From Salinicola corii (GTDB lineage: Bacteria; Pseudomonadota; Gammaproteobacteria; Pseudomonadales; Halomonadaceae), in assembly GCF_008298015.1 (NCBI RefSeq), contig NZ_VTPX01000001.1:434001-498000 (forward strand): DNA of 64,000 nucleotides, written 5' to 3'. A program made the position numbers and the translations under genes. Shown piece by piece: positions 31,084 to 45,982 of this stretch (position 1 is its first letter; every line of letters begins with the position of its first letter). The notes beneath the pieces were generated by a model that worked only from the letters and a program-made list of their open reading frames with translations, made no database searches and was not told where the DNA came from.

Positions 31084-32805
31084 ATGACCTCGACTGTTAC
31101 TGCTTCGCCTAGCTTTGGCGATCTGGCTCTATTGCCGGAAGTACTGACCGCCCTCGAAACGCTGGGCTACGAAATTCCTTCGCCGATCCAGACGCAGACG
31201 ATTCCTGCGCTGCTGGAAGGCCGCGACATGCTGGGCCAGGCACAGACCGGCACCGGCAAGACCGCAGCGTTCGCGCTGCCACTGCTGAGCCGTCTCGATC
31301 TCGGCCGGCGCGAACCGCAAGTGCTGGTGCTGGCACCGACCCGTGAGCTGGCGCAGCAGGTTGCCGTCTCGTTCTCCAAGTACGGCCAGAACCTGAAAGG
31401 GCTGGAGATCGCCACGCTGTGTGGCGGACAGGACTATCGCGAACAGCTGTCGGCGTTGAAGCGTGGCGCTCAGGTCGTCGTGGGTACACCGGGTCGAATC
31501 ATCGATCACCTTGACCGTGGCAGCCTCAAGCTCGACGGCTTGTCGGCGCTGGTGCTCGACGAAGCCGACGAAATGCTGCGCATGGGCTTCATCGATGACG
31601 TCAAGCGCGTGGTCTCGGACACACCGAAGGATGCTCAGCGGGTCTTCTTCTCGGCGACGCTGCCGAGCGAGATCGAGCGTATCGTCAACCGTTATCTGGT
31701 CGATCCGGTCAAAGTCACGATCGAGTCCAAGGTCAGCACAGGCGAGAACATCGAACAACGCGTCGTGCGTGTCGAAGGCCCCAGCAAGCTGGAAGCCCTG
31801 GCGCGTATCTTCGAAGTCGAGACGGTCGATGCCGCTATCGTGTTCGTGCGCACCCGTGCCGCCTGCACCACGCTGGTCGAGCAGCTCACCGCACGCGGCG
31901 TCAACGCCGCCGGTCTGTCCGGCGATCTCGACCAGAGCCTGCGCGAGCGCACCGTGACCCGCCTCAAGCGTGGCAAGGTCGACGTGCTGGTCGCCACCGA
32001 CGTGGCTGCGCGTGGCCTGGACGTACCGCGGATCACTCACGTGATCAACTACGATCTGCCGCAGGATTCCGAAGCCTACATTCACCGTATCGGCCGTACC
32101 GGCCGTGCGGGCCGCAACGGTGTCGCCATCACCTTTGCCGGCGGTCGCGAAACCCGCAAGGTGCGCTGGGTCGAACAGGCCACCGGTCAGGCCATGACCG
32201 AGATGCCGCTGCCCGACGAGGCCGCCATTCGCGCCCATCGCGACACGCAGTTCAGTGGGCGTCTGCGCGAGATGCTCGAAGCCGGTGGCGATCATCAGCG
32301 CGCGCTGATCGAGAAGCTGGTCGAGGAAGGCCACGATCCGATCGATCTGGCGGCGGCGCTGGCGACGCTGGCGCGTGCCGGCGAAGCGCCGATCGGCCGC
32401 ATCACCAGTTCGCCCTCGCGCCGCGATAGCGGTCGTGACGGTGGCCGCGATGGCGGTAGCCGCGAGCGCGGTGCCCCGCGTCGTCGCGACAGTGCACCGC
32501 GCGAAGGCATGACCCGCTACCGGGTCTCCGTCGGACACAAGGATGGCGTCAAGCCGGGTCAACTGGTCGGTGCGCTGGCCAACGAAGGCGGCATCGAAGG
32601 CGGTCGTATCGGCCGCATCGATATCCGCAACGCTTTCTCCGTGGTCGAGCTGCCGAGCGGACTGCCGTCCTCGATTCTGGCCAAGATGTCACGCGCGCGG
32701 GTCGGCGGACGCTCGCTGGAGATCTCGGAAGACCAGGGCGCGCCCGAGCGTGCACCGCGTCGCCGCACCGATGGCGACGCACCGGTTCGCCGCTCTCACG
32801 CCTGA
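31084..32805 (+). CDS. DEAD-box ATP-dependent RNA helicase (DeaD/CsdA-like)
   Basis: 573-residue RNA helicase for ribosome assembly and RNA unfolding. Q motif and Phe11 precede Walker A AQTGTGKT at 53-60; DEAD is at 159-162, SAT near 195, and the second RecA domain has ARGLDVPRI and HRIGRTGRAG. An Arg/Gly/Asp-rich linker (about 440-475) leads to a DbpA-type RNA-binding domain (YRVSVGHKDGVKPGQLVGAL to the end). AAGGTG precedes the ATG. Strong terminators follow. It could be named deaD or csdA; the short C-terminal tail is less basic than in E. coli DeaD. Confidence 0.93.
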   Translation: MTSTVTASPSFGDLALLPEVLTALETLGYEIPSPIQTQTIPALLEGRDMLGQAQTGTGKTAAFALPLLSRLDLGRREPQVLVLAPTRELAQQVAVSFSKYGQNLKGLEIATLCGGQDYREQLSALKRGAQVVVGTPGRIIDHLDRGSLKLDGLSALVLDEADEMLRMGFIDDVKRVVSDTPKDAQRVFFSATLPSEIERIVNRYLVDPVKVTIESKVSTGENIEQRVVRVEGPSKLEALARIFEVETVDAAIVFVRTRAACTTLVEQLTARGVNAAGLSGDLDQSLRERTVTRLKRGKVDVLVATDVAARGLDVPRITHVINYDLPQDSEAYIHRIGRTGRAGRNGVAITFAGGRETRKVRWVEQATGQAMTEMPLPDEAAIRAHRDTQFSGRLREMLEAGGDHQRALIEKLVEEGHDPIDLAAALATLARAGEAPIGRITSSPSRRDSGRDGGRDGGSRERGAPRRRDSAPREGMTRYRVSVGHKDGVKPGQLVGALANEGGIEGGRIGRIDIRNAFSVVELPSGLPSSILAKMSRARVGGRSLEISEDQGAPERAPRRRTDGDAPVRRSHA

Positions 32806-32821
32806 TCGTCGAACGCCGCGC

Positions 32822-32850
32822 CGCCAGCCGAGCTCGATGCTCCGCTGGCG
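32822..32850 (+). other. Upstream hairpin of a tandem 3' structure after the helicase gene
   Basis: CGCCAGC-C-GAGC pairs with GCTC-C-GCTGGCG around the loop TCGAT, an 11-bp stem with one C-C mismatch. It lies 16 bases after the stop codon and 7 bases before the terminator hairpin, so it may stabilise the 3' end of the mRNA. Confidence 0.55.
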
Positions 32851-32857
32851 TCGAAAG

Positions 32858-32890
32858 AACGCCGCCCACCTCGTGGGCGGCGTTTTTTTT
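32858..32890 (+). terminator. Strong rho-independent terminator of the helicase gene
   Basis: A perfect 12-bp stem (AACGCCGCCCAC at 32858-32869, GTGGGCGGCGTT at 32873-32884), loop CTC, then a run of eight T ending at 32890. Confidence 0.95.
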
Positions 32891-32990
32891 GGGTCCGGTA
32901 GCGTCGCCTCGTCCCCGGGGCGATCCGAGAAGCGATGTCTCCAACCCGTCTCGAGGCAGGACCTAGGTCTGACAGTCGGTGACGGTCTTT

Positions 32991-33001
32991 GTATGCAATA
33001 C
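32991..33001. promoter_or_regulatory. Possible GntR-type operator in the gntR promoter
   Basis: GTAT-GCA-ATAC is an 11-bp palindrome of the kind bound by FCD-type GntR regulators. It lies 65 bases before the start of a gene coding for such a regulator, so autoregulation is possible. Short and unverified. Confidence 0.3.
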
Positions 33002-33066
33002 TCATTATCGCTGAATCGTGGCACGTCCCGATTCAGGTCCACCGAAAACGTGGCGGAATCAGTTCG

Positions 33067-34047
33067 ATGACCAAGACGCTCAAGGATCAACTGTACGAGG
33101 CCCTGCTGCGCAGCATGGCCAGTGGGCATCTGGAGCCCGGCCTGGTGCTGCTCGAGGGCAACATCGCCGATATCTTCGGCATGAGCCGCTCGCCGGTGCG
33201 CCAGACGTTGGGACGGCTGCACGACGAGGGCGCCATCAGCCGTTTCGAAGGACGGGGGTTCCTGGTGGGGCGGGCCCCGGGGAGTGTCGTGCGTCGATCG
33301 CTGACGGCAGCCGATTTCCGGGCCGCGGGCGGCCGCGCCTCCGTCAAGCGAACGGACTCCTGGCGCGCGCTGGCGGAGAGGGTGGAGCACGACGTCGTCC
33401 TCTGCTCGATGAAGGGGCGACTCGAGCTCAACGAATTGCAACTGGCCAAGTCGCTGGGTGTCAGCCGCGCCACCACGTACCGCATCCTTCTGCAGCTGCA
33501 GTCTCTCGGTGTCGTCGAGAAGATCAAGTACAGCAGTTGGAACGTGGTGCCGCTGGACGACGCCCGACTGCATCAGCTCTACGATGCGCGACGCCAACTG
33601 GAGCCGTTCATGATCGCGCGCGCCTGCGAGCGCATCGCCGACAAGTCGATCCAGCGCTATCTGGACCGTCTGGATCAGGCCCAGGCCAGCTACCCCAGAA
33701 TCGAAGCCAGCCAGCTCGATGCGCTGGAGAACGACCTGCACCACGAAGCGCTGGAGCAGGGCGGCAACGCCGAGATCCTGATCATGCTTCAGCGCACGCG
33801 GCCGATCCTGCTGATCAGCAAGCACCTGCTGGGGGGCGCGATCGAACTGCCGCCGGGCGACCCGTTCTTCGCCGCGCATCGGCAGGTCTTCGAAGCGATG
33901 CAGCTGCGGCGTGCCGAGCAGGCCAGCGAAGCGCTTTACCGGCACATCAAGGACTCCGAGGCACTGGTCCAGGAACGTCTGGCCAACTTCCGGCATGCCG
34001 GCGAGCTGCGGGAGCCGGGATACCTGCGTTGGTTGAGCCAGCGCTAG
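33067..34047 (+). CDS. GntR-family regulator with FCD domain and two winged-helix domains
   Basis: 326-residue regulator starting at the ATG at 33067. The first winged helix spans about 8-68 (LEGNIADIFGMSRSPVRQTL). A second DNA-binding-like segment spans about 101-162 (NELQLAKSLGVSRATTYRIL). The ligand-binding FCD-like helical domain follows (about 165-315) with His residues in ENDLHHEAL and AAHRQVFEAM. FCD regulators usually have one DNA-binding domain, so the duplication is unusual. It converges on the sugar-acid operon and probably senses one of its acids. Its stop codon directly touches a partial copy of the palindromic repeat. Confidence 0.85.
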   Translation: MTKTLKDQLYEALLRSMASGHLEPGLVLLEGNIADIFGMSRSPVRQTLGRLHDEGAISRFEGRGFLVGRAPGSVVRRSLTAADFRAAGGRASVKRTDSWRALAERVEHDVVLCSMKGRLELNELQLAKSLGVSRATTYRILLQLQSLGVVEKIKYSSWNVVPLDDARLHQLYDARRQLEPFMIARACERIADKSIQRYLDRLDQAQASYPRIEASQLDALENDLHHEALEQGGNAEILIMLQRTRPILLISKHLLGGAIELPPGDPFFAAHRQVFEAMQLRRAEQASEALYRHIKDSEALVQERLANFRHAGELREPGYLRWLSQR

Positions 34048-34087
34048 GCCATGTCTTGCCGTCGCTCGTCGACTTTTCAGACAGAGC
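34048..34087. repeat. Partial copy of the palindromic MITE-like element
   Basis: This 40-base segment matches one end of the 139-bp element at 48953-49091 (in reverse complement) at 34 of 40 positions and ends in the same TTTTCAGACAGAGC terminus. It starts at the first base after the gntR stop codon. The other half is absent. Confidence 0.65.
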
Positions 34088-34119
34088 CCAGACTCTGGCT
34101 GGGCCGTTGGGCCGTGAAG

Positions 34120-36510
34120 TCAGTCGACCGGCATGCCGTTTCGTCGGCGCAACTCCCGGATCAGCGCGCTGTGATCCAGGTCGCCATCGCCATGTTCCAG
34201 CATGTCGCCGAACAGCGCATCCCCCTGGCGGCTCATGGGAAGGTCGAGTGACAGACGAGCGATCTGCGCCATGGCGGTCTGGGTGTCCTTGTACTGCCAT
34301 TTTGCGGCGCCGCCCGGCACGAAGCTTTCCTCCAGCATGCGCCGACCATGGACATCGAGAACGGTCGAGTCGGCGAAACCGCCCATCAACGCCTGACGCA
34401 CCTGCGCGGGATCGGCCCCGCCGCGTTCCACCAGCAGCAGGGCCTCGGCAACGGTGGCGATGGTGTTGGCCACGATCATCTGGTTGGCAAGCTTGGCGAG
34501 CTGGCCGCTCCCGGCGGGGCCGACGTGGGTCGGGCGGCCGAGGGTCGCCAGCAGCGGGCGATGACGTTCGAAAACCGAAGCCTCGCCGCCGACCATGATC
34601 GCCAGCGTGCCCTCGATGGCGCCGCGCTCGCCGCCGGAGACCGGCGCATCGAGATAGCCGATGCCATGGGGGCTGGCGGCCTCCGCCTGCCCCTTGGCGG
34701 TGTCCACCGGGATCGAGCTCATCACCACCAGGCAACTGCCGGGCCGCATCGCGGCGATGATGCCAGTCTCGCCCAGCAGGATCTCATCGCAGACGGGACC
34801 GGCGCTCAGCATCACGATGACCACATCGGCATCGTGGGCAGCCGCTTCGGGGGATCGGGCCGCGACCACGCCGGCCGCCTGCAGCGGTGTCAGTTTGTCG
34901 GGCGTGCGGTTCCAGGCCTGGACACGATGGCCGACATCCGCCAGGCGGGCCGCCATGGGGGCCCCCATGATGCCGGTTCCGATGAAGCCGATGGTCAGTG
35001 GGCTTTCGCCATGGCGATCTTTTTCGACACTGGGATCTTGCATGAGTCGTTTCCTGAAAGAAGGGGACGCTTCCGGGGCCGGGTCACTCGGCGGGGGGGG
35101 AAGAATCCGGCCAGGGGAGATCAGGTACCGGGGGTCCAGGAGACGCTTCAGGCCGCGCATGATGTCGTACTCGGGCTCGGAGAGCGTCTCCAGGAAGGCG
35201 GCCTGTTTGAACCGCCCGATGCCATGCTCGGCGCTGATGCTGCCGTCGAAGTCGGCGACGATCTCGAACAGGCGCTCCTCCAGCTCGTGCAGCAGCGACG
35301 AGCGCTCATCGGAATCGAGTCCCGGGGGCGGCAGGACGTTGAAGTGCAGGTTGCCGTCGCCGATGTGGCCATAGGCGATGATCGTCGCTTGCGGAGACAA
35401 TGTCTGGATGTCGTCGGCAGCGCGTTGGTGGAATGCCGTCAACGACGAGATCGGCAGCGAGACGTCCGTGCGCAGGTGCTCGCCACGATTGCGCTGGCCC
35501 TCCAGCATGGCTTCTCGGATGCGCCAGAGATTGCCGGCCTGGGCCTCGCTGGTGGCGAGCACGCCATCGGTGAGCTGGCCGGCCGCGAGTCCGCGCTCGA
35601 ACAGGTCCTCGATCATCGTGTCCAGGTCCGCCGGTCCACTGGCGCTGGCTTCCATCAGGACGTAATACGGCGCCGGTGCATCCAGCGGATCGCGTAGATC
35701 GGGGGCGGCCTCCATGGCGAGCTCGAGGCAGGCGCGCGGCACCAGCTCGAAGGCGGTCAGCAGGTCGCAGCAACTGCGTCGCGCCAGCGCGTAGAGCTCG
35801 AGCACGGCAGCCACGCTGGGGCAGGCCAGCAGGGCGCTGCGACTGACCTGGGGCCGGGGGAACAGCTTGAGTACCGCGCCGGTCACGATGCCGAGCGTGC
35901 CCTCCGCACCGATGAAAAGCTGCTTCAGATCGTAGCCCGTGTTGTCCTTGTGCAGCGCCTTCATGCCGTTGTAGATGCGTCCATCCGGCAGTACCACCTC
36001 CAGTCCCAGCACCAGCTGTCTCATCATGCCGTAACGCAGCACGTTGAGGCCGCCGGCGTTGGTCGAGACGTTACCGCCGATCTGGCAGCTACCCTGGGCG
36101 CCCAGCGAGAGTGGAAAATCGCAATCCGCCGCTTCGGCGGCATCCTTGGCCGACTGCAGGACGCAGCCGCCATCCACGCTCATGGTGAAGTTGATGGGGT
36201 CGACATCGCGGATCGCCGCCATTCGCTCAAGACTGACGACGAGCTCCGGCCGTTCGACATCGGGCAAGGCGCCGCCGACCAGCCCGCTGTGGCCGCCCTG
36301 GGGCACCAGTGCGACATCGTGGCGATGGCAGTAGCTCACCACGTCGGCGACCTGGCGCGTCGTCGCCGGGCGTGCCACCGCCAGCGGTTCGGCGCCACGG
36401 TAGCCCGGCCAGTCGACGCAGTAGCGCTCCATGTCGTCGGTATCGGTCAGTAACCCACCCGGGCCCAGCATCGCGGTCAGATCGTCGAGCAGCGTGGCCT
36501 GAATGGTCAT
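34120..36510 (-). CDS. Fused FAD-linked 2-hydroxyacid oxidase and beta-hydroxyacid dehydrogenase
   Basis: One open frame of 796 residues. Residues 1-470 are an FAD_binding_4/FAD-oxidase_C enzyme like D-lactate or D-2-hydroxyglutarate dehydrogenase (VPQGGHSGLVGGALP, IGGNVSTNAGGLNVLRYG, HIGDGNLHFN, SAEHGIGRFK). Residues 505-796 are an NAD(P)-dependent reductase of the GarR/3-hydroxyisobutyrate group (IGFIGTGIMGAPMA, DAPVSGGERGAIEGT, catalytic Lys673 in GSGQLAKLANQ). AGAGGTGA precedes the ATG at 36510. The junction is a run of eight C (35093-35100 on the plus strand as G). One extra C would stop the first enzyme five codons later, and the second has its own ATG and ribosome site. It is either a true fusion or two genes joined by one missing base. 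Confidence 0.75.
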   Translation of the reverse strand: MTIQATLLDDLTAMLGPGGLLTDTDDMERYCVDWPGYRGAEPLAVARPATTRQVADVVSYCHRHDVALVPQGGHSGLVGGALPDVERPELVVSLERMAAIRDVDPINFTMSVDGGCVLQSAKDAAEAADCDFPLSLGAQGSCQIGGNVSTNAGGLNVLRYGMMRQLVLGLEVVLPDGRIYNGMKALHKDNTGYDLKQLFIGAEGTLGIVTGAVLKLFPRPQVSRSALLACPSVAAVLELYALARRSCCDLLTAFELVPRACLELAMEAAPDLRDPLDAPAPYYVLMEASASGPADLDTMIEDLFERGLAAGQLTDGVLATSEAQAGNLWRIREAMLEGQRNRGEHLRTDVSLPISSLTAFHQRAADDIQTLSPQATIIAYGHIGDGNLHFNVLPPPGLDSDERSSLLHELEERLFEIVADFDGSISAEHGIGRFKQAAFLETLSEPEYDIMRGLKRLLDPRYLISPGRILPPPPSDPAPEASPSFRKRLMQDPSVEKDRHGESPLTIGFIGTGIMGAPMAARLADVGHRVQAWNRTPDKLTPLQAAGVVAARSPEAAAHDADVVIVMLSAGPVCDEILLGETGIIAAMRPGSCLVVMSSIPVDTAKGQAEAASPHGIGYLDAPVSGGERGAIEGTLAIMVGGEASVFERHRPLLATLGRPTHVGPAGSGQLAKLANQMIVANTIATVAEALLLVERGGADPAQVRQALMGGFADSTVLDVHGRRMLEESFVPGGAAKWQYKDTQTAMAQIARLSLDLPMSRQGDALFGDMLEHGDGDLDHSALIRELRRRNGMPVD
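35041..35103 (-). other. Homopolymer junction and internal translation start in the fused gene
   Basis: On the minus strand the codons read CTT, eight C, then GCCGAGTGACC. With nine C the frame reads Leu-Pro-Pro-Pro-Ala-Glu-stop, using the TGA at 35084-35086. An ATG at 35043 with AGGAAA eight bases upstream then opens a 307-residue reductase ending at 34120. So a length change in the C run would turn the fusion into two ordinary neighbouring genes. Confidence 0.7.
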
Positions 36511-36562: not shown

Positions 36563-37819
36563 TCAGCGATACCAGAGAACGACCTGGGGGAAGAGCAGGA
36601 ACAGCACCAGCAGGGCGATCAACGTGAAGTAGAAGGGGAGCAGGCTCTTGACCAGGCTCTCCATGCCGACCTTGCCGACGCCGCAGCCGACGTAGAGCAC
36701 CGTACCCACGGGAGGCGTGATCAGGCCGATCCCCAGGATGAACGACATCAGCACCCCGAAATAGACGGGATCGATGCCCAGCTTGACCACTACTGGCGTC
36801 ATCAGCGGCGCCAGAATCACCATCGCCGGCGTCAGGTCCATGAAGAAGCCGACCACCAGCAGGAAGCCAGACAGGATCAGCAGCAGCAGCAGTTTGTTCT
36901 CGGTAATGGCGGACAGGCTGACCACCAGTTGTTGCGGGATCATGTTGGCGGTGAGCAGCCAGGCGAGAACACTGGCGAAGGCCAGCAGCAGCATCACCAC
37001 GCCGGTCAGTTTGCCGGTGGCGATACAGAGTTCGAAGAAGCGCTTCAGCGTCAGACTGCGGTAGATGAAGAACGAGACCGCGAAGGCGTAGACCAGGGCG
37101 ATCGCCGCGCTTTCCGTCGGGGTGAAGACGCCCGAGAGGATCCCGCCGACGATAATGACCGGCAGCAGCAGTGCCAGCAGCGCTTCCTTCAACGCCGCGA
37201 ACAGCTCCGGTACCGAGAACGGTCGGCCGCGGCCGTTCTTGCGCGACTGGACATAGGTGGTCACCGCCAGCCCCAGCGTGATCAGGATGCCCGGCACGAT
37301 ACCTGCCATGAACAGCTGCGAGATCGAGGTATTGGTGACCACGCCGAACAGGATCATCGGTATCGAGGGCGGGATGATGATGCCGACCACCGACGCGGCC
37401 ACCACGATGGCCGTCGCCAGCGGCGCGCTGTAGCGATGCTGCTTCATCGGCTCGATCATCATGCTGCCGACGGCGGAAGCGTCGGCCACGGCCGAGCCGC
37501 TGATGCCGCCGAAGAACATCGATGTCAGCACCGCGACCTGGCCTAGGCCGCCGGCCACGAATCCGACCAGGGCGCTGGCCAGCCGAACCAGGCGGGTGGC
37601 GATGCCACCGGCGCTCATGACTTCCCCGACCAGGATAAACAGCGGAATGGCCAGAAGCGGGAAGGAGTCCAGGCCATTGACCGCCTGTGCCACGATCGGC
37701 GAGAGCGCGTAGCCGGACTCGAAGAAGATGAACAGGCTGATGGCCGCGAGACCGAACGAGATCGGCATGCCGATGACGATACAGATGGCCAGCCCTATCA
37801 GAATGCTCCATAGAATCAT
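36563..37819 (-). CDS. dctM: TRAP transporter large permease subunit
   Basis: Inner-membrane subunit of a sodium-driven C4-acid/sugar-acid importer, 418 residues with about 12 helices. The ATG at 37819 overlaps the DctQ stop as ATGA; the longer open frame runs through dctQ and is not coding. GGISGSAVADASAVGSMMIEPM and IIPPSIPMILFGV are classic DctM motifs. It belongs to a minus-strand operon (fuconate dehydratase, DctP, DctQ, DctM, fused oxidase), so the cargo is probably an aldonic or related acid. Confidence 0.93.
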   Translation of the reverse strand: MILWSILIGLAICIVIGMPISFGLAAISLFIFFESGYALSPIVAQAVNGLDSFPLLAIPLFILVGEVMSAGGIATRLVRLASALVGFVAGGLGQVAVLTSMFFGGISGSAVADASAVGSMMIEPMKQHRYSAPLATAIVVAASVVGIIIPPSIPMILFGVVTNTSISQLFMAGIVPGILITLGLAVTTYVQSRKNGRGRPFSVPELFAALKEALLALLLPVIIVGGILSGVFTPTESAAIALVYAFAVSFFIYRSLTLKRFFELCIATGKLTGVVMLLLAFASVLAWLLTANMIPQQLVVSLSAITENKLLLLLILSGFLLVVGFFMDLTPAMVILAPLMTPVVVKLGIDPVYFGVLMSFILGIGLITPPVGTVLYVGCGVGKVGMESLVKSLLPFYFTLIALLVLFLLFPQVVLWYR

Positions 37820-38304
37820 GGTGTCTTGCTCCGGAACAGGGAGAACAGGGCGATGGTGTTGGCGATGATCGTCAGGATCGCCATCACCGGCATGGCGCTG
37901 TACAGAAACGTCTGCGGAATGCCCAGCATCGGCGTGGCGCTGGTATAGCCCGAAATGACGTCGTTGAACCCCAGCAGGATGCAGATGCAGACGATGTAGA
38001 TGATGGCGATGCTCAGCAGCACGGCGGCCTTGCGCAGCCCGGCGGGTGCCTTGTCGCGGAAGAAGGTGACCGCCACATGCTCGTTGCCGAGGCTGCCGAC
38101 GCCGGCGCCGAGCAGAACCAACCAGATGAAGAGCACCCGGGAGAGCTCCTCGGCCCAGGTGTAGGAATAGTTGAGGACGAAGCGGCCAAAGACGTTGGCC
38201 GTAACGCAGAACACCACGCCCAGCACGAGTAGCCCGACAGCGATTTCCAGCGTTTGGCGTAGCCAGCCCAGGAAACCCCGGGCGGAAGGCGAGTCGGCAT
38301 TCAT
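37816..38304 (-). CDS. dctQ: TRAP transporter small permease subunit
   Basis: Four-helix inner-membrane protein of 162 residues that partners DctM. I chose the ATG at 38304 because GGAGG lies at proper distance; ATGs at 38307 and 38322 are alternatives. The helix with NYSYTWAEELSRVLFIWLV contains the conserved region of the DctQ family. It ends overlapping dctM, giving coupled translation. Confidence 0.9.
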   Translation of the reverse strand: MNADSPSARGFLGWLRQTLEIAVGLLVLGVVFCVTANVFGRFVLNYSYTWAEELSRVLFIWLVLLGAGVGSLGNEHVAVTFFRDKAPAGLRKAAVLLSIAIIYIVCICILLGFNDVISGYTSATPMLGIPQTFLYSAMPVMAILTIIANTIALFSLFRSKTP

Positions 38305-38366
38305 CATGACCTCCGTGATCACGCAATCGCCGCAGGCGCGAGTCGGCGCCTGCGGCGAACCGGTAC

Positions 38367-39461
38367 TTACTGAGTCTTGGACTCAGCGCGAATACGATCG
38401 ATCAGGTCGCCGCCAATCTTGTCACGCCAGTCGTCGTAGACCGGCGCCAGATCTTCCTGGAAGGTCGCGATCTGCTCTGGCGTCAGTTCGGTGATCTGCA
38501 TGCCCTGATCTTTCAGCTCCTGCTTGATCTGGTCGTTGAGAGTCCGGCTGACCTGACGCTCGTAGTCGCCCATCTGCTTTGCCGCCTCGCGCAGCAGTTG
38601 CTGATAGCTCTCCGGCAGCCGGTTCCAGAAGCGCTCGGACACCAGCGTGATGAACGGCGTGTAGACGTGGTTGGTCTCGGTGGCATACTGCTGCACTTCA
38701 TTGAATTTCGAGGATTCGATGGTGATCCACGGATTCTCCTGACCGTCGACGACTCCCTGCTCCAGCGCGGTGAAGAGCTCGGCGAAGGACATCGGAGTCG
38801 GATTCGCGCCCAGCGTACGCCAGATATCCAGGTGGATCGGGTTTTGCATGGTCCGGACCTTCAGGCCATCCAGGTCCGAGGGGGAGGTCACCGCCTGCTT
38901 GCTGTTGGTCAACTGGCGATAGCCGTTCTCGGCCCAGCCGATGGCGACCAGTCCCTTGGTGGAGGCGTCCTTCAGCATCTGCTGACCGATATCCCCGTCC
39001 AGTACCTTGTCGGCGATTTCCGGTGTCGGGAACAAGAATGGCAGGTCGAAGACGGCGAACTGCGGGAACATGCTGACCATGGGGGAGGTGGACGGCGCGG
39101 TCATCTCCAGCGTGCCGGCCTGGAGGGCACTGACCGACTGCAGGTCGTCGCCCAGCTGCGCGCTATGGAACGCCTGTACCTGGATATGACCGTCACTGCG
39201 TTGCTCGACGATCTTCTTGAAGTACTCCAGGCCGCGATACTGGGCGCTGGACTGGGTCAGGCCGATATTGAACTTGAGGCTGTAATCGTTGCCGTCACCC
39301 TCGACGACATCGCCGGTCACCTCCGGGAATGGCGGCATTTCGGTAGCGGCGGTGGCAGAGAGGCTAGTCAGACCCAGGACCGTTGCCATCACCAGCGTCG
39401 TCAACCGGGAACGGGCACGACTAGGGCGCGGAGTGGTGGGGAAGGATGTGATTGTTGTCAT
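38367..39461 (-). CDS. dctP: TRAP transporter solute-binding protein
   Basis: Periplasmic binding protein of 364 residues. The ATG at 39461 has GGAG six bases upstream; the frame extends further but without family sequence. A signal peptide with a long basic n-region ends near ATA-A (about 43). LFTALEQGVVDGQENPW is the DctP signature with the substrate-contacting Asn/Gln area, and Arg in LKVRTMQNPIHLDIW should bind the carboxylate. The operon suggests L-fuconate or another sugar acid as ligand. Confidence 0.93.
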   Translation of the reverse strand: MTTITSFPTTPRPSRARSRLTTLVMATVLGLTSLSATAATEMPPFPEVTGDVVEGDGNDYSLKFNIGLTQSSAQYRGLEYFKKIVEQRSDGHIQVQAFHSAQLGDDLQSVSALQAGTLEMTAPSTSPMVSMFPQFAVFDLPFLFPTPEIADKVLDGDIGQQMLKDASTKGLVAIGWAENGYRQLTNSKQAVTSPSDLDGLKVRTMQNPIHLDIWRTLGANPTPMSFAELFTALEQGVVDGQENPWITIESSKFNEVQQYATETNHVYTPFITLVSERFWNRLPESYQQLLREAAKQMGDYERQVSRTLNDQIKQELKDQGMQITELTPEQIATFQEDLAPVYDDWRDKIGGDLIDRIRAESKTQ

Positions 39462-39590
39462 CTTCAGCTCCATAGCTTTGGTGGCGCTTCTCGCGTGAGT
39501 GGCATGAATAGCGTGAGTGACTTGCTGCATGGCGACGCCGGTCTCGGCGGCGTCCGAATGCTCTGGGTGGCGGGCGTCCGGTGCCAAGGG

Positions 39591-40889
39591 CTATTGCCAG
39601 GCGCTGCCGCCTGGAAAGCGGTGGGCCTCGAGTGAACTGGCTTTCATGGTGACGCCGTAGCCGGCGGCGTCCGGTATCTGGTAATGCCCGCGATCGATCC
39701 GAACCGGGTCGACGAAGTGCTCGTGCAGGTGGTCGACGTACTCCAGCAGACGACCCTCGAGCGAGCCGGAAACGGCGATGTAATCGAACATGGAGATATG
39801 CTGGGTGTACTCGCATAGGCCCACGCCGCCGCCATGGGGGCAGACCGGGATGTCGTGCTTCGCGGCCATTAGCAGCACCACGATCACCTCGTTGAGTCCG
39901 CCCAGGCGGGCGGCATCCAACTGGCAGAAATCGATCGCGTCTGCCTGGAAGAGCTGCTTGAACATCACCCGGTTATGGCAGTGCTCGCCCGTGGCGACGC
40001 CGATCGGTGCCAGGCGGTGGCGAATCTCGGCATGACCGAGCACGTCGTCCGGACTGGTGGGCTCCTCGATCCAGTGTGGCCGGAACTCGGCCAGCCGACG
40101 CATGTTGGCGATCGCCTCATCGACGTCCCACATCTGATTGGCGTCCATCATCAACAGGCGCTCTTCGCCGATCTCCTCGCGCAGAATCCGGGCCCGTCGT
40201 CGATCTTCCTCGATGTTGCCGCCGACCTTCTGCTTGAAGTGCTCCCAGCCAGCCGCGATCGCCTCCCGGCACAGCGAGCGCATCTTCTCCTCGGAGTAGC
40301 CCAGCCAGCCGGCGGACGTGGTATAGGCGGGATAGCCGTGCTCGCGCATGGAGGCCTCGCGTTCGGCCTTGCCCGCTTCGCGGCGCTTGAGCAGGCCGAT
40401 CGCCTCTTCCGGCGTCAAGGCATCGGTGACGAAGCGGAAATCGAGGCAGCGGACCAGCTCCTCGGGCGTCATGTCGGCCAGCAGCTTCCACACCGGCTTG
40501 CCCTCCCGCTTGGCCCACAGATCCCAGATCGCGTTGATCATCGCCGAGCAGGCCAGATGAATGACACCTTTCTCCGGCCCCAGCCAGCGCAACTGACTGT
40601 CCCCGCTGGTGAGCTCCCGCCAGTACGCGCCCATGTCGGCGGTGATGTCCGCCAGCGAATGTCCCTCCAGGCGCGTCGCCAGCGACTCGACGGCGGTGAC
40701 GCATATCTCGTTGCCGCGTCCGATGGTGAAGGTCAGACCGTGGCCGGTAATACCATCGTCGGCATCGGTGTGCAGAATGACGTAGGTGGCTGAGTAGTCC
40801 GGCGCGGCGTTCATCGCATCCGACCCGTCCAGTTCACGGGAGGTCGGAAAGCGGATGTCCTGAACTTCGACGCGTTGAATCGTGGGCAT
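39591..40889 (-). CDS. L-fuconate dehydratase (enolase superfamily)
   Basis: 432-residue enzyme converting L-fuconate to 2-keto-3-deoxy-L-fuconate. From memory it follows the Xanthomonas FucD sequence closely (RFPTSRELDGSDAMN, SQLRWLGPEKGV, YPAYTTSAGWLGYS, EEPTSPDDVLGHA). The active site is visible: Lys219 and Lys221 (FKQKVGG), metal ligands Asp249, Glu275 and Glu302, and His352 in CPHGGG. It heads the minus-strand TRAP operon and is divergent from a LysR regulator. Activity on related acids such as L-galactonate or D-arabinonate cannot be excluded. Confidence 0.9.
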   Translation of the reverse strand: MPTIQRVEVQDIRFPTSRELDGSDAMNAAPDYSATYVILHTDADDGITGHGLTFTIGRGNEICVTAVESLATRLEGHSLADITADMGAYWRELTSGDSQLRWLGPEKGVIHLACSAMINAIWDLWAKREGKPVWKLLADMTPEELVRCLDFRFVTDALTPEEAIGLLKRREAGKAEREASMREHGYPAYTTSAGWLGYSEEKMRSLCREAIAAGWEHFKQKVGGNIEEDRRRARILREEIGEERLLMMDANQMWDVDEAIANMRRLAEFRPHWIEEPTSPDDVLGHAEIRHRLAPIGVATGEHCHNRVMFKQLFQADAIDFCQLDAARLGGLNEVIVVLLMAAKHDIPVCPHGGGVGLCEYTQHISMFDYIAVSGSLEGRLLEYVDHLHEHFVDPVRIDRGHYQIPDAAGYGVTMKASSLEAHRFPGGSAWQ

Positions 40890-42153: not shown

Positions 42154-43353
42154 TCAGCGCTGGCCGAGATGGGCCAGCAGGGCGCGAATACCGAAGGTCC
42201 AGGGTGGTAGCCGATCGCTGCGATCGACCACGTTGGTCAGCGCGCCCAGCCTGGACGTCGAGATCGTCACCCGGTCGCCCACATGATGGGTGAAGCCCTG
42301 GCCCTCGCCGTCCCGGTCCTGGATCGGCGAGAACATGGTGCCAAGGAACAGCATGAAGCCGTCGGGATACTGGTGGTGGGCACCGTAGGTCTGCGCCACC
42401 AGGTCGAGCGGATCGCGGCTGATTTCGCGCATGTCGCTCTCGCCCTCCAGCACGAAGTCGTCGTCCACCCCCTCGATGAGTAGCGAGACCCTGGCGTTGC
42501 GCACGTCGTCGATGCCGAAGTGTTCGTCGAACAGGCGGATGAAGGGGCCGATCGAGCAGGAGGCGTTGTTGTCCTTGGCCTTGCCCAGCAGCAGGGCGCT
42601 GCGGCCCTCGATATCGCGCAGATTGACGTCGTTGCCGAGGGTCGCGCCACGCACCCGGCCCTCGGCGTCCACCGCCAGCACGATCTCCGGCTCCGGATTG
42701 TTCCATTGGGAGGCGGGGTGCAGGCCGACTCGCGCACCGTGGCCGACGGCGGACAGCGGCTGCGCCTTGGAGAACACCTCGGCATCGGGGCCGATGCCCA
42801 CTTCCATGTACTGCGACCAGCCGCCACGGGCTTGCAGCTCGGCCTTCAGCGCCATCGCTTCCTCCGAACCGGGCTCGATCCGCGACAGGTCGCCACCGAT
42901 CAACGCCTGGATCTCCTCGCGCAGCTCGGCGGCACGCTTGAGGTCGCCACCGGCCTGCTCCTCGATCACCCGCTCCAGCAGGCTGACGGCGAAGGTCACG
43001 CCGCAGGCCTTGATCGCCTGCACGTCGCAGGGGGCCAGGAGATAGGGCGCCTGCGGTATATCCGCATGGCTGTTGGCGAGCACTTCGGCCAGGGTGCCGA
43101 CGGTGTCGCCGGGCGCTTCGCGAACGAGCCAGGTCGCGTCGTCGCGTTCCAGCAGGTCGGCCATGGTGGCCACGTGGCGGGAGAGGTCGACCAGCGTATC
43201 GCCGCGCAGCGCCACCGGCGCCGGCCCGGCCCGGCCGCCGGCGCTCTCCAGCCAGACGCGACCCACCAGGAGGGCGCGATCGGCATCGTCGGGCAGGCAA
43301 TGCCCGGCCTGGCGTTGCGGGGAAAGGGAGTCGGGATCGTTGAATGAGGCCAT
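42154..43353 (-). CDS. Fumarylacetoacetate hydrolase-family enzyme
   Basis: 399-residue FAH-fold protein, longer than typical hydrolases and of the length of 2-keto-3-deoxy-sugar-acid dehydratases of the XylX kind. The metal-binding core is visible around SQYMEVGIGPDAEVFSKAQPL, HPASQWNNPEPEI and GNDVNLRDIEGRS. AGGAG precedes the ATG. Last gene of the TctCBA unit, 45 bases after the Ldh-family gene. It may cleave a 2,4-diketo-3-deoxy acid, or dehydrate a 2-keto-3-deoxy acid; the sequence does not decide. Confidence 0.85.
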   Translation of the reverse strand: MASFNDPDSLSPQRQAGHCLPDDADRALLVGRVWLESAGGRAGPAPVALRGDTLVDLSRHVATMADLLERDDATWLVREAPGDTVGTLAEVLANSHADIPQAPYLLAPCDVQAIKACGVTFAVSLLERVIEEQAGGDLKRAAELREEIQALIGGDLSRIEPGSEEAMALKAELQARGGWSQYMEVGIGPDAEVFSKAQPLSAVGHGARVGLHPASQWNNPEPEIVLAVDAEGRVRGATLGNDVNLRDIEGRSALLLGKAKDNNASCSIGPFIRLFDEHFGIDDVRNARVSLLIEGVDDDFVLEGESDMREISRDPLDLVAQTYGAHHQYPDGFMLFLGTMFSPIQDRDGEGQGFTHHVGDRVTISTSRLGALTNVVDRSDRLPPWTFGIRALLAHLGQR

Positions 43354-43398
43354 GTAGCGGTGAGCTCCTGTCGAGTCGAGAGAGAAAGTGGGATTGCT

Positions 43399-44454
43399 TC
43401 AGCCGAAAGCGGTATTGCCCGATAGCGACGAGTCTGCCACGGCCTCGCGCATGGCCTCCACCACGTCCGGTGGTAAGGGGATGCCGTTGTCCAGATAGTC
43501 CCGGCGGCGGGAGAGGCCGGACTGACCCGGCAGGCGCACCGGCCGCTCGGGATCGCGCGGCCGGCTGCCGAGGCAGCGTCTGGCGATGTGGTCGGTCTCG
43601 TCGAGGAAGGAGTCCGTGCCACCGAAACGGGCCGGATCGATCACCATGACCATCACCGACGCTCCCCAGCCCTCCGGGGAGTCCTTGCGTCCGTAGCCGG
43701 AAAGGGCCGACGTCAAGGCTTCGACCATCAGCCCCAGCGCAAAGCCCTTGTGGCCGAAGGCGAGTTCGCCCAGGGGCAGGATGCTCCCCTCCGGGGAGGC
43801 GAAATAGTCCTCGGGATCGTCACTGACCTCGCCGTGGCCGGTGAGAATCGCCGGGTGGCCGAGCCTGTCGCCGGCGGCACGGGTCTTGCCCACGGTGCCG
43901 TTGGTGATCGTCGACATGCTGACGTCGATCAGTAGCGGCTGTTCGCGCCCGGGGATACCGACCGCCAGCGGGTTTGGGGTGTAGACCCGGTCCAGGCCGC
44001 CGAACGGTGCGACCGAGGCGACCGCCGGATCCGAGGTCAATATCAGCGGAACCAGGTTGGCCTCGACCAGCGGTTGCAGGTACGCCGCCAGGCACGCGAT
44101 GTGGTGCGACCGCTTGAGACTGACCATCCCGATCCCGAACGTAGTGGCCGCGTCGCGACAGTGGTCCAGCGCGCGTTGCACCAGGTACGGACCCAGCAGG
44201 TAGTGGCCGTCGAACAGCGCCGCGACCGGGCTGTTCTCCTGGATCTCGAGCCGGCTGTGATCGCCGCAGGCATGGCCCGCCTTGAGATCCTTGAGATAGC
44301 CGTTGGCCAGTTTCACGCCGTGGGTGTGGTGACCGAGCAGGTCGCCCTCGACCAGGATGCGCGCGGTGGTTTCCGCCACATCGGCGCTGGCGCCGTTCTC
44401 GGTGAACAAGGTGAACAGCGTGGCGCGCAGGGTATCGGCGTCGTAGCGTGTCAT
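43399..44454 (-). CDS. Ldh-family (malate/ureidoglycolate-type) NAD(P)-dependent dehydrogenase
   Basis: 351-residue member of the LDH2/MDH2 family, which includes 2,3-diketo-L-gulonate reductase and ureidoglycolate dehydrogenase. GDLLGHHTHGVKL, the catalytic SLKRSHHIACLAAYL and PFGGLDRVYTPNPLAVGIP are family signatures. Its ATG overlaps the TctA stop (ATGA). In this context it could oxidise a 2-keto-3-deoxy acid before cleavage by the neighbouring FAH enzyme, as in the L-fucose route; that role is inference. Confidence 0.9.
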   Translation of the reverse strand: MTRYDADTLRATLFTLFTENGASADVAETTARILVEGDLLGHHTHGVKLANGYLKDLKAGHACGDHSRLEIQENSPVAALFDGHYLLGPYLVQRALDHCRDAATTFGIGMVSLKRSHHIACLAAYLQPLVEANLVPLILTSDPAVASVAPFGGLDRVYTPNPLAVGIPGREQPLLIDVSMSTITNGTVGKTRAAGDRLGHPAILTGHGEVSDDPEDYFASPEGSILPLGELAFGHKGFALGLMVEALTSALSGYGRKDSPEGWGASVMVMVIDPARFGGTDSFLDETDHIARRCLGSRPRDPERPVRLPGQSGLSRRRDYLDNGIPLPPDVVEAMREAVADSSLSGNTAFG

Positions 44455-45968
44455 GAGGACCTCGGTGTCTGGTCGGTTTGCGCCGGGCGGCGCCAGTGTC
44501 GGAATAGGCGAATCAGCGTGGGCAGCGCCCAGATCAGAATGACCAGCGCGCCCAGCGCGGCGCTGATCGGCCGTTCGAAGAAGGCCAGCAGGTCGCCGTT
44601 GGATTTCAGCATCGAACTCATGAAGCTGTTCTCCAGCGTGCCGCCGAGCACCAGGCCCAGGATCGCCGGCGCCATGGGGAAGTCATTGCGGGCCAGCACG
44701 AACGCTACCAGCCCGATGATCAGCATGATCCAGATGTCGGTGATCGAGTTGTTGATGGCGAAGGCGCCGACGATGCAGAAGCTCAGAATCACCGGCATCA
44801 GCAGCTTGCGCGGGGTCAGGATGAACACCTTCGAGGCGCGAATGGCGAGGTAGCCGATCGGCAGCATGATCAGGTTGGCGACGAAGAATACCGTGAACAG
44901 CGCATAGACCTGGCCGCCGCCGTTCATGAAGATCGTCGGCCCCGGGTTCATGCCCTTCATGTAGAGCACGCCGATGACGATGGCGGTGATGGTGTCGCCC
45001 GGTATGCCGAACACCAGCGCCGGTACCCAGGCACCGCTGATGCCGGAGTTGTTGGCGGAGCTGGCATCGACGATGCCCTCGATATGGCCGGTGCCATATT
45101 TCTCCTTCTCCTTGGAGCGACTCTTGCCCAGCGCATAGGCGATCCACGCGGCGATATCCGCACCCGCGCCAGGCAGCGCACCGATCAGCGTGCCCAGCGA
45201 ACTGCCGCGCAGGATGTTGCGCCAGTAGGTCTTGACGTGCCCCGGAGCGTTGGCGAACACGCTGTCCTTGGCCATTACCGGGACGCTGCGCGCTTCGGCC
45301 CGCGAGCCGTAGAACATCATGATCTCGTTGAGCGCAAACATGCCGATCATCACCGGGATGAAATTGATGCCGGCCATCAGGTCGGGCACGCCGAAGGTGA
45401 AGCGCGGCGCGCCGCTCATCATGTCGAGACCGACGGTCGACAGCAGCAGTCCCACGGTCAGCGACAGGAACGCTTTGACCCGGGAACCGATGGCGATGAA
45501 GATCGAGCTGCTCAAGCCCAGCAGGGCGAGCCAGAAGTACTCGAACGAGCTGAAGTTGAGCGCCATTTCGGCCAGCGAGGGGGAGACGAAGACCAGCACC
45601 ATGGTGCCGAACAGCCCGCCGATGACGGAGCAGATCAGGTTGGTGCCCAGCGTTTCCCGGGCGCGGCCCTTCTGGGCGAGACGATAGGACTCACCAACAT
45701 AGGCCGCGGATGCCGGCGTGCCGGGGATATTGAGATAGGTGCCGGGAATGTCGCCGGCGAAGATCGCCATGGCCGAGGTCGCCACGATGGCGGCAATGGC
45801 CGGGGTGGCATCCATGTAGAACGTGATCGGCACCAGCAGAGCCACTGCCATGGTGGCGGTCAGGCCGGGAATGGCGCCCACGAAGAGTCCGAAGACGGCC
45901 GCCGCGACGATGAACAGCATCGTCTGGACGTTGAACACCATTGCCAGGCCTTGCAGAAAGGAGTCCAT
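44451..45968 (-). CDS. tctA: Tripartite tricarboxylate transporter large permease
   Basis: 505-residue inner-membrane protein with about 12 helices. GAIPGLTATMAVALLVPITF and the second repeat GALPGAGADIAAWIAYALGK are the paired glycine/proline motifs of TctA. The ATG at 45968 is preferred over a TTG at 45974. With TctB and TctC it forms a cation-coupled importer of carboxylates. Its stop overlaps the dehydrogenase start. Confidence 0.95.
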   Translation of the reverse strand: MDSFLQGLAMVFNVQTMLFIVAAAVFGLFVGAIPGLTATMAVALLVPITFYMDATPAIAAIVATSAMAIFAGDIPGTYLNIPGTPASAAYVGESYRLAQKGRARETLGTNLICSVIGGLFGTMVLVFVSPSLAEMALNFSSFEYFWLALLGLSSSIFIAIGSRVKAFLSLTVGLLLSTVGLDMMSGAPRFTFGVPDLMAGINFIPVMIGMFALNEIMMFYGSRAEARSVPVMAKDSVFANAPGHVKTYWRNILRGSSLGTLIGALPGAGADIAAWIAYALGKSRSKEKEKYGTGHIEGIVDASSANNSGISGAWVPALVFGIPGDTITAIVIGVLYMKGMNPGPTIFMNGGGQVYALFTVFFVANLIMLPIGYLAIRASKVFILTPRKLLMPVILSFCIVGAFAINNSITDIWIMLIIGLVAFVLARNDFPMAPAILGLVLGGTLENSFMSSMLKSNGDLLAFFERPISAALGALVILIWALPTLIRLFRHWRRPAQTDQTPRSS

Positions 45969-45982
45969 GAGCAATCACCAGG

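Follow-up and report, generated by a model that had tools for sequence, protein, structure and literature searches.

FAD-linked D-2-hydroxyacid dehydrogenases, such as D-2-hydroxyglutarate/D-lactate dehydrogenase and the relatives of GlcD, carry the domain pair FAD_binding_4 and FAD-oxidase_C, while NAD_binding_2 and NAD_binding_11 are found in the family of GarR/tartronate semialdehyde reductase and 3-hydroxyisobutyrate dehydrogenase. In the window, i.e. the whole 64,000-nucleotide stretch of Salinicola corii DNA analysed here, the first pair is common to residues 42-468 and the second to residues 506-786 of one open frame. Compared with the FAD-linked dehydrogenases, only the read-through lengthens this frame, by 325 residues. 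In passages of PMC3711429 on spurious or private fusions that arise when an indel falls at the upstream gene's end, a one-base difference and adjacent genes are likewise involved. As in the frame transitions between adjacent genes described there, the downstream gene of the window keeps its own start and ribosome-binding site; unlike in those transitions, the indel joins two frames and does not break one gene. From the comparisons below, we conclude that the two enzymes are normally encoded by separate genes and that the window very probably lacks one G near the end of the first gene, a loss private to this assembly.

Two enzymes in one open frame

The features of the locus were as follows.

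34120..36510, minus strand: joined open frame of 796 aa, running from 36510 to 34120 (ORF list)
35101..36510, minus strand: FAD-linked 2-hydroxyacid dehydrogenase, residues 1-470 (Pfam and solved-structure matches; encoded separately in 17 of 17 same-genus genomes)
35093..35100, minus strand: eight-C run, at which the window differs by one base from the nearest relative (CCCCGCCCC there; sequence, alignment to relative)
35084..35086, minus strand: TGA, with which the nearest relative ends its first gene and which is out of frame in the window (sequence, alignment to relative)
35050..35055, minus strand: AGGAAA, ribosome-binding-like site of the second gene, the same in the nearest relative (alignment to G002)
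34120..35043, minus strand: gene for a GarR-like beta-hydroxyacid dehydrogenase, starting at an ATG of its own (35043; Pfam, TIGR score, relatives, solved-structure matches)
36563..40889, minus strand: DctM, DctQ and DctP (TRAP transporter) and a mandelate-racemase/enolase-like dehydratase, upstream (ORF list, Pfam, relatives)
32989..34047, plus strand: convergent GntR/FCD-family regulator (ORF as listed, Pfam, relatives)

An earlier note on this DNA had described an FAD oxidase and a GarR-like dehydrogenase with no stop between them, joined at an eight-C run, the second enzyme having its own ATG (35043) and an AGGAAA upstream. All of this was confirmed: the ORF list gave no internal stop in the 796-residue frame (36510-34120, minus strand), eight G were found on the plus strand at 35093-35100 (C8 on the coding strand; sequence and G8 scan), and both the ATG and the AGGAAA were present. 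Residues ~472-504 corresponded to translated spacer followed by the N-terminus proper to the second enzyme.

In the FAD-linked half, FAD_binding_4 was matched at residues 42-180 (109.5 bits, gathering score 26.4) and FAD-oxidase_C at residues 219-468 (143.5 bits, gathering score 21.2). Both Pfam matches exceeded the gathering score and covered nearly the whole domain, which makes this half a member of the FAD-linked 2-hydroxyacid dehydrogenases; the FAD-oxidase_C match spanned profile positions 1-247 of 248, the domain being complete just ahead of the C run. Solved structures matched residues 2-469 (PDB 3pm9) and 14-472 (PDB 6lpn) of the window protein. With a TIGR00387 score of 237.8 (cut-off 567.9), this half fell outside the glycolate oxidase GlcD equivalog.

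The GarR-like half contained NAD_binding_2 at residues 506-659 (163.9 bits, gathering score 21) and NAD_binding_11 at residues 667-786 (96.5 bits, gathering score 30) and belongs, with both domains above the gathering score, to the beta-hydroxyacid dehydrogenase (GarR/HIBADH) superfamily. PDB 4dll, 1yb4 and 1vpd, of the GarR/HIBADH family, matched the window protein from residue ~491-505 onward. This half differed from 2-hydroxy-3-oxopropionate (tartronate semialdehyde) reductase in scoring below the TIGR01505 equivalog cut-off (279.9 versus 340.75).

There is nothing unusual about either enzyme, and both belong to a conserved TRAP-transporter/sugar-acid operon. The same-strand order was mandelate-racemase/enolase-like dehydratase, DctP, DctQ, DctM, FAD enzyme and, at the end of the set, GarR-like enzyme, with the GntR/FCD regulator convergent to it, and the same gene order was found in all nine Salinicola loci compared. 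From family knowledge, we take this set to serve sugar-acid uptake and catabolism. Further upstream on the minus strand (42154-45974), look-alikes of a fumarylacetoacetase-family protein, an Ldh2-type dehydrogenase and a TctA-type transporter subunit were observed by inspection, and these ORFs are probably a further part of the sugar-acid locus. The regulator at 32989-34047 had a GntR match at residues 32-93 and weaker helix-turn-helix matches at residues ~144-194 (Pfam), which suggests two DNA-binding segments; the TTG start of the listed ORF probably makes it too long.

The junction in Salinicola relatives

Relatives were searched in 117 genomes, including that of the window (G000), of which 17 others were of the same genus; these 17 served for the comparison of the junction. 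In all of them, the FAD gene stopped exactly four residues past ...GRILP. A GarR-like gene with its own ATG lay downstream in 15 of the 17, and was not found in the other two within the ~1.5 kb examined downstream.

The nearest genome, G002, shared ~96% DNA identity with the window over 36.6 kb, and 98% and 97% protein identity in the FAD and GarR-like halves, respectively. Between the CTT in the final codons of the first gene and the next ATG, the two sequences were the same except for one G. The joint read CCCC-G-CCCC in G002 and CCCCCCCC in the window, i.e. a one-base difference across the joint (CTTCCCCGCCCCGCCGAGTGA versus CTTCCCCCCCCGCCGAGTGA, respectively). Since G002 differs by one G only, the base absent from the window is, by this alignment, the G between two C4 runs rather than a ninth C. 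The earlier note had calculated that a ninth C would give Pro-Pro-Pro-Ala-Glu and a stop; the arithmetic was correct, but the extra base in the nearest relative is a G, with which the first gene ends in Leu-Pro-Arg-Pro-Ala-Glu-stop. The comparison of the same locus in relatives, which that note had proposed, thus gave a divided answer: the first gene stopped separately in 17 of 17 genomes, but a nine-C ancestral junction was seen in none of them.

We take the normal layout to be an FAD-linked 2-hydroxyacid dehydrogenase ending in ...GRILP plus four residues, a spacer of ~40 bases with a ribosome-binding site, and then the GarR-like reductase. In this assembly, one G is missing from between the C4 runs in the final codons of the first gene; this shifts the frame past the first gene's stop codon, and the two genes are read as one ORF because the frame of the second is open upstream of its ATG. 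In G002, this frame was indeed open upstream, beyond the first gene's stop. Of the 15 adjacent pairs, 6 (L013, L014, L015, L017, L022 and L025) share this open frame in the same relative position and would likewise be fused by the loss of one base, so that it is unremarkable for such a loss to produce a fused frame.

Consensus error or recent deletion

The reading of the earlier note in which one base is missing from the assembly held in part. A missing base fits the relatives, and we infer that a consensus error is somewhat likelier than a true recent deletion. If the deletion were true, the strain would make an 85-kDa FAD oxidase-GarR chain, and a free GarR-like enzyme could still arise from its own start; the change would be near-neutral, since both domains are complete. 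We consider such a deletion a serious possibility, short of an even chance. It agrees with the complete domain sets (Pfam), with the intact start and ribosome-binding site of the second gene and with an assembly showing no clear excess of frame breaks or C/G runs; against it, the deletion was absent from the 17 same-genus genomes.

The state of the assembly was assessed from gaps, split ORFs and base runs. Alignment of the window to G002 gave 17 gaps in 36.6 kb. Those in genes judged real were one of 12 bases, one of 3 bases and the one-base gap at the joint; the others fell between genes, in shadow ORFs or within a leader that had been over-extended. By this assignment, the gap at the joint was judged to be the only one of the 17 that changes the frame of a real gene. 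The listed ORFs 32543-33070 and 33018-34598 were also touched by gaps, of a single base at 32890 and 32931 and longer at 34048-34095; as these ORFs lie across the helicase and regulator genes in other frames, they were judged to be shadow ORFs. The one-base gap at 39568 was assigned to a leader, as it fell in the first residues of the listed DctP ORF, ahead of the start of the alignment to the relative.

In 400 kb of the window's assembly, 2 of 163 conserved ORFs were split between frames; two relatives had 1 of 149 and 0 of 153. Although this count is blind to shifts in the last few codons, such as that at the joint, it showed no general excess of split genes here. One of the two split ORFs was also split in G002, and the other, in a gene outside the window, came from a one-base difference. 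Internal stops were more frequent here, in 23 of 163 ORFs versus 13 of 149 and 14 of 153 in the controls; when only mid-protein stops were counted, the values were 12 of 161, 8 of 148 and 8 of 153, respectively. These counts are noisy and no weight is placed on them, since the reference sets differ and many of the ORFs concerned had several stops or were shadow ORFs, in GC-rich DNA where starts are placed too far upstream.

C or G runs of at least eight numbered 4 in 400 kb; two relatives had 3 (in 400 kb) and 2 (in 279 kb). C4GC4 was counted 7 times here and 11 and 5 times in the relatives. With no clear excess of C/G runs and no clear depletion of C4GC4, nothing pointed to a systematic artefact of base calling in which C4GC4 is turned into C8. 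Few split ORFs and the lack of a clear excess of C/G runs indicate that the assembly is not grossly error-prone, and these results are compatible with an error as well as with a true deletion. Two other Salinicola draft genomes, described in the part of PMC5518125 consulted, were obtained by Illumina sequencing.

Outside the window, at G000:C11 ~372783-373510, a gene was observed to be split between two frames by a one-base difference in a G-rich stretch. By inspection, it resembled a Crp/FNR-type regulator and was conserved in two relatives, and it is a candidate for a second single-base loss or error.

Changes with respect to G002 were mostly synonymous, with a dN/dS of 0.17 in the FAD half (18 synonymous and 9 non-synonymous changes) and 0.31 in the GarR-like half (11 and 10, respectively). 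Both halves thus look constrained by purifying selection and neither gene appears to be decaying, which fits an error or a very recent event.

A single missing base at a gene end can thus mimic a convincing two-enzyme fusion in a draft genome, and claims of fusion or channelling from the window's record are to be withheld while the joint is unconfirmed. If the deletion is real, the locus would illustrate, on a small scale and in nature, a gene fusion that has just arisen. That such a deletion has already yielded a working 85-kDa bifunctional sugar-acid protein, with the internal start still giving free reductase, seems improbable to us.

Slippage and conserved fusion

Another reading proposed in the earlier note was that slippage at the C run yields the fused protein alongside the two separate ones. 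According to passages of PMC3711429, slip-prone sites are often homopolymers of at least eight, and poly-C/poly-G phase variation has been described; by that measure, the length of the window's C8 makes transcriptional slippage worth considering. The same passages recognise programmed events by the conservation of the slippery site, and here the run was not conserved: the 17 same-genus junctions had interrupted C runs, none of eight or nine, with a G interrupting in the nearest relative (C4-G-C4). Slippage at a nine-C run was therefore rejected, and we regard programmed or phase-variable slippage in general as very unlikely.

Equally improbable is a conserved or selected bifunctional fusion, in which an acid would be channelled from one active site to the other: adjacency of the genes in 15 of 17 same-genus genomes, and in one frame with a single TGA between them in a distant genome, speaks for it, but the stop at the joint in 17 of 17 same-genus genomes led us to reject it, the linker is the spacer DNA of G002 translated through, and the 27 related solved-structure sequences (27 of 27) each matched one half only.

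Nor was the fused frame found elsewhere among the matches listed. The wider searches covered the order with 390 genomes, scoring two matches in each, and the class with 143 (E up to 1e-60); the genome sets overlap. Among the matches listed from the 117, 390 and 143 genomes, an uninterrupted span of both halves was present in the window's own genome only, so that no second genome with the fused frame supports a conserved gene fusion. At least four same-genus genomes (G001, G003, G008 and G015) had matches spanning both halves, each with at least one internal stop; the remaining matches listed covered one half only or had a stop between the halves.

In the distant genome of the class mentioned above (G565:C24:18802-21162), the two adjacent enzymes, separated by the single TGA in one frame, showed 42% identity; their adjacency there indicates that the pairing is older than the genus.
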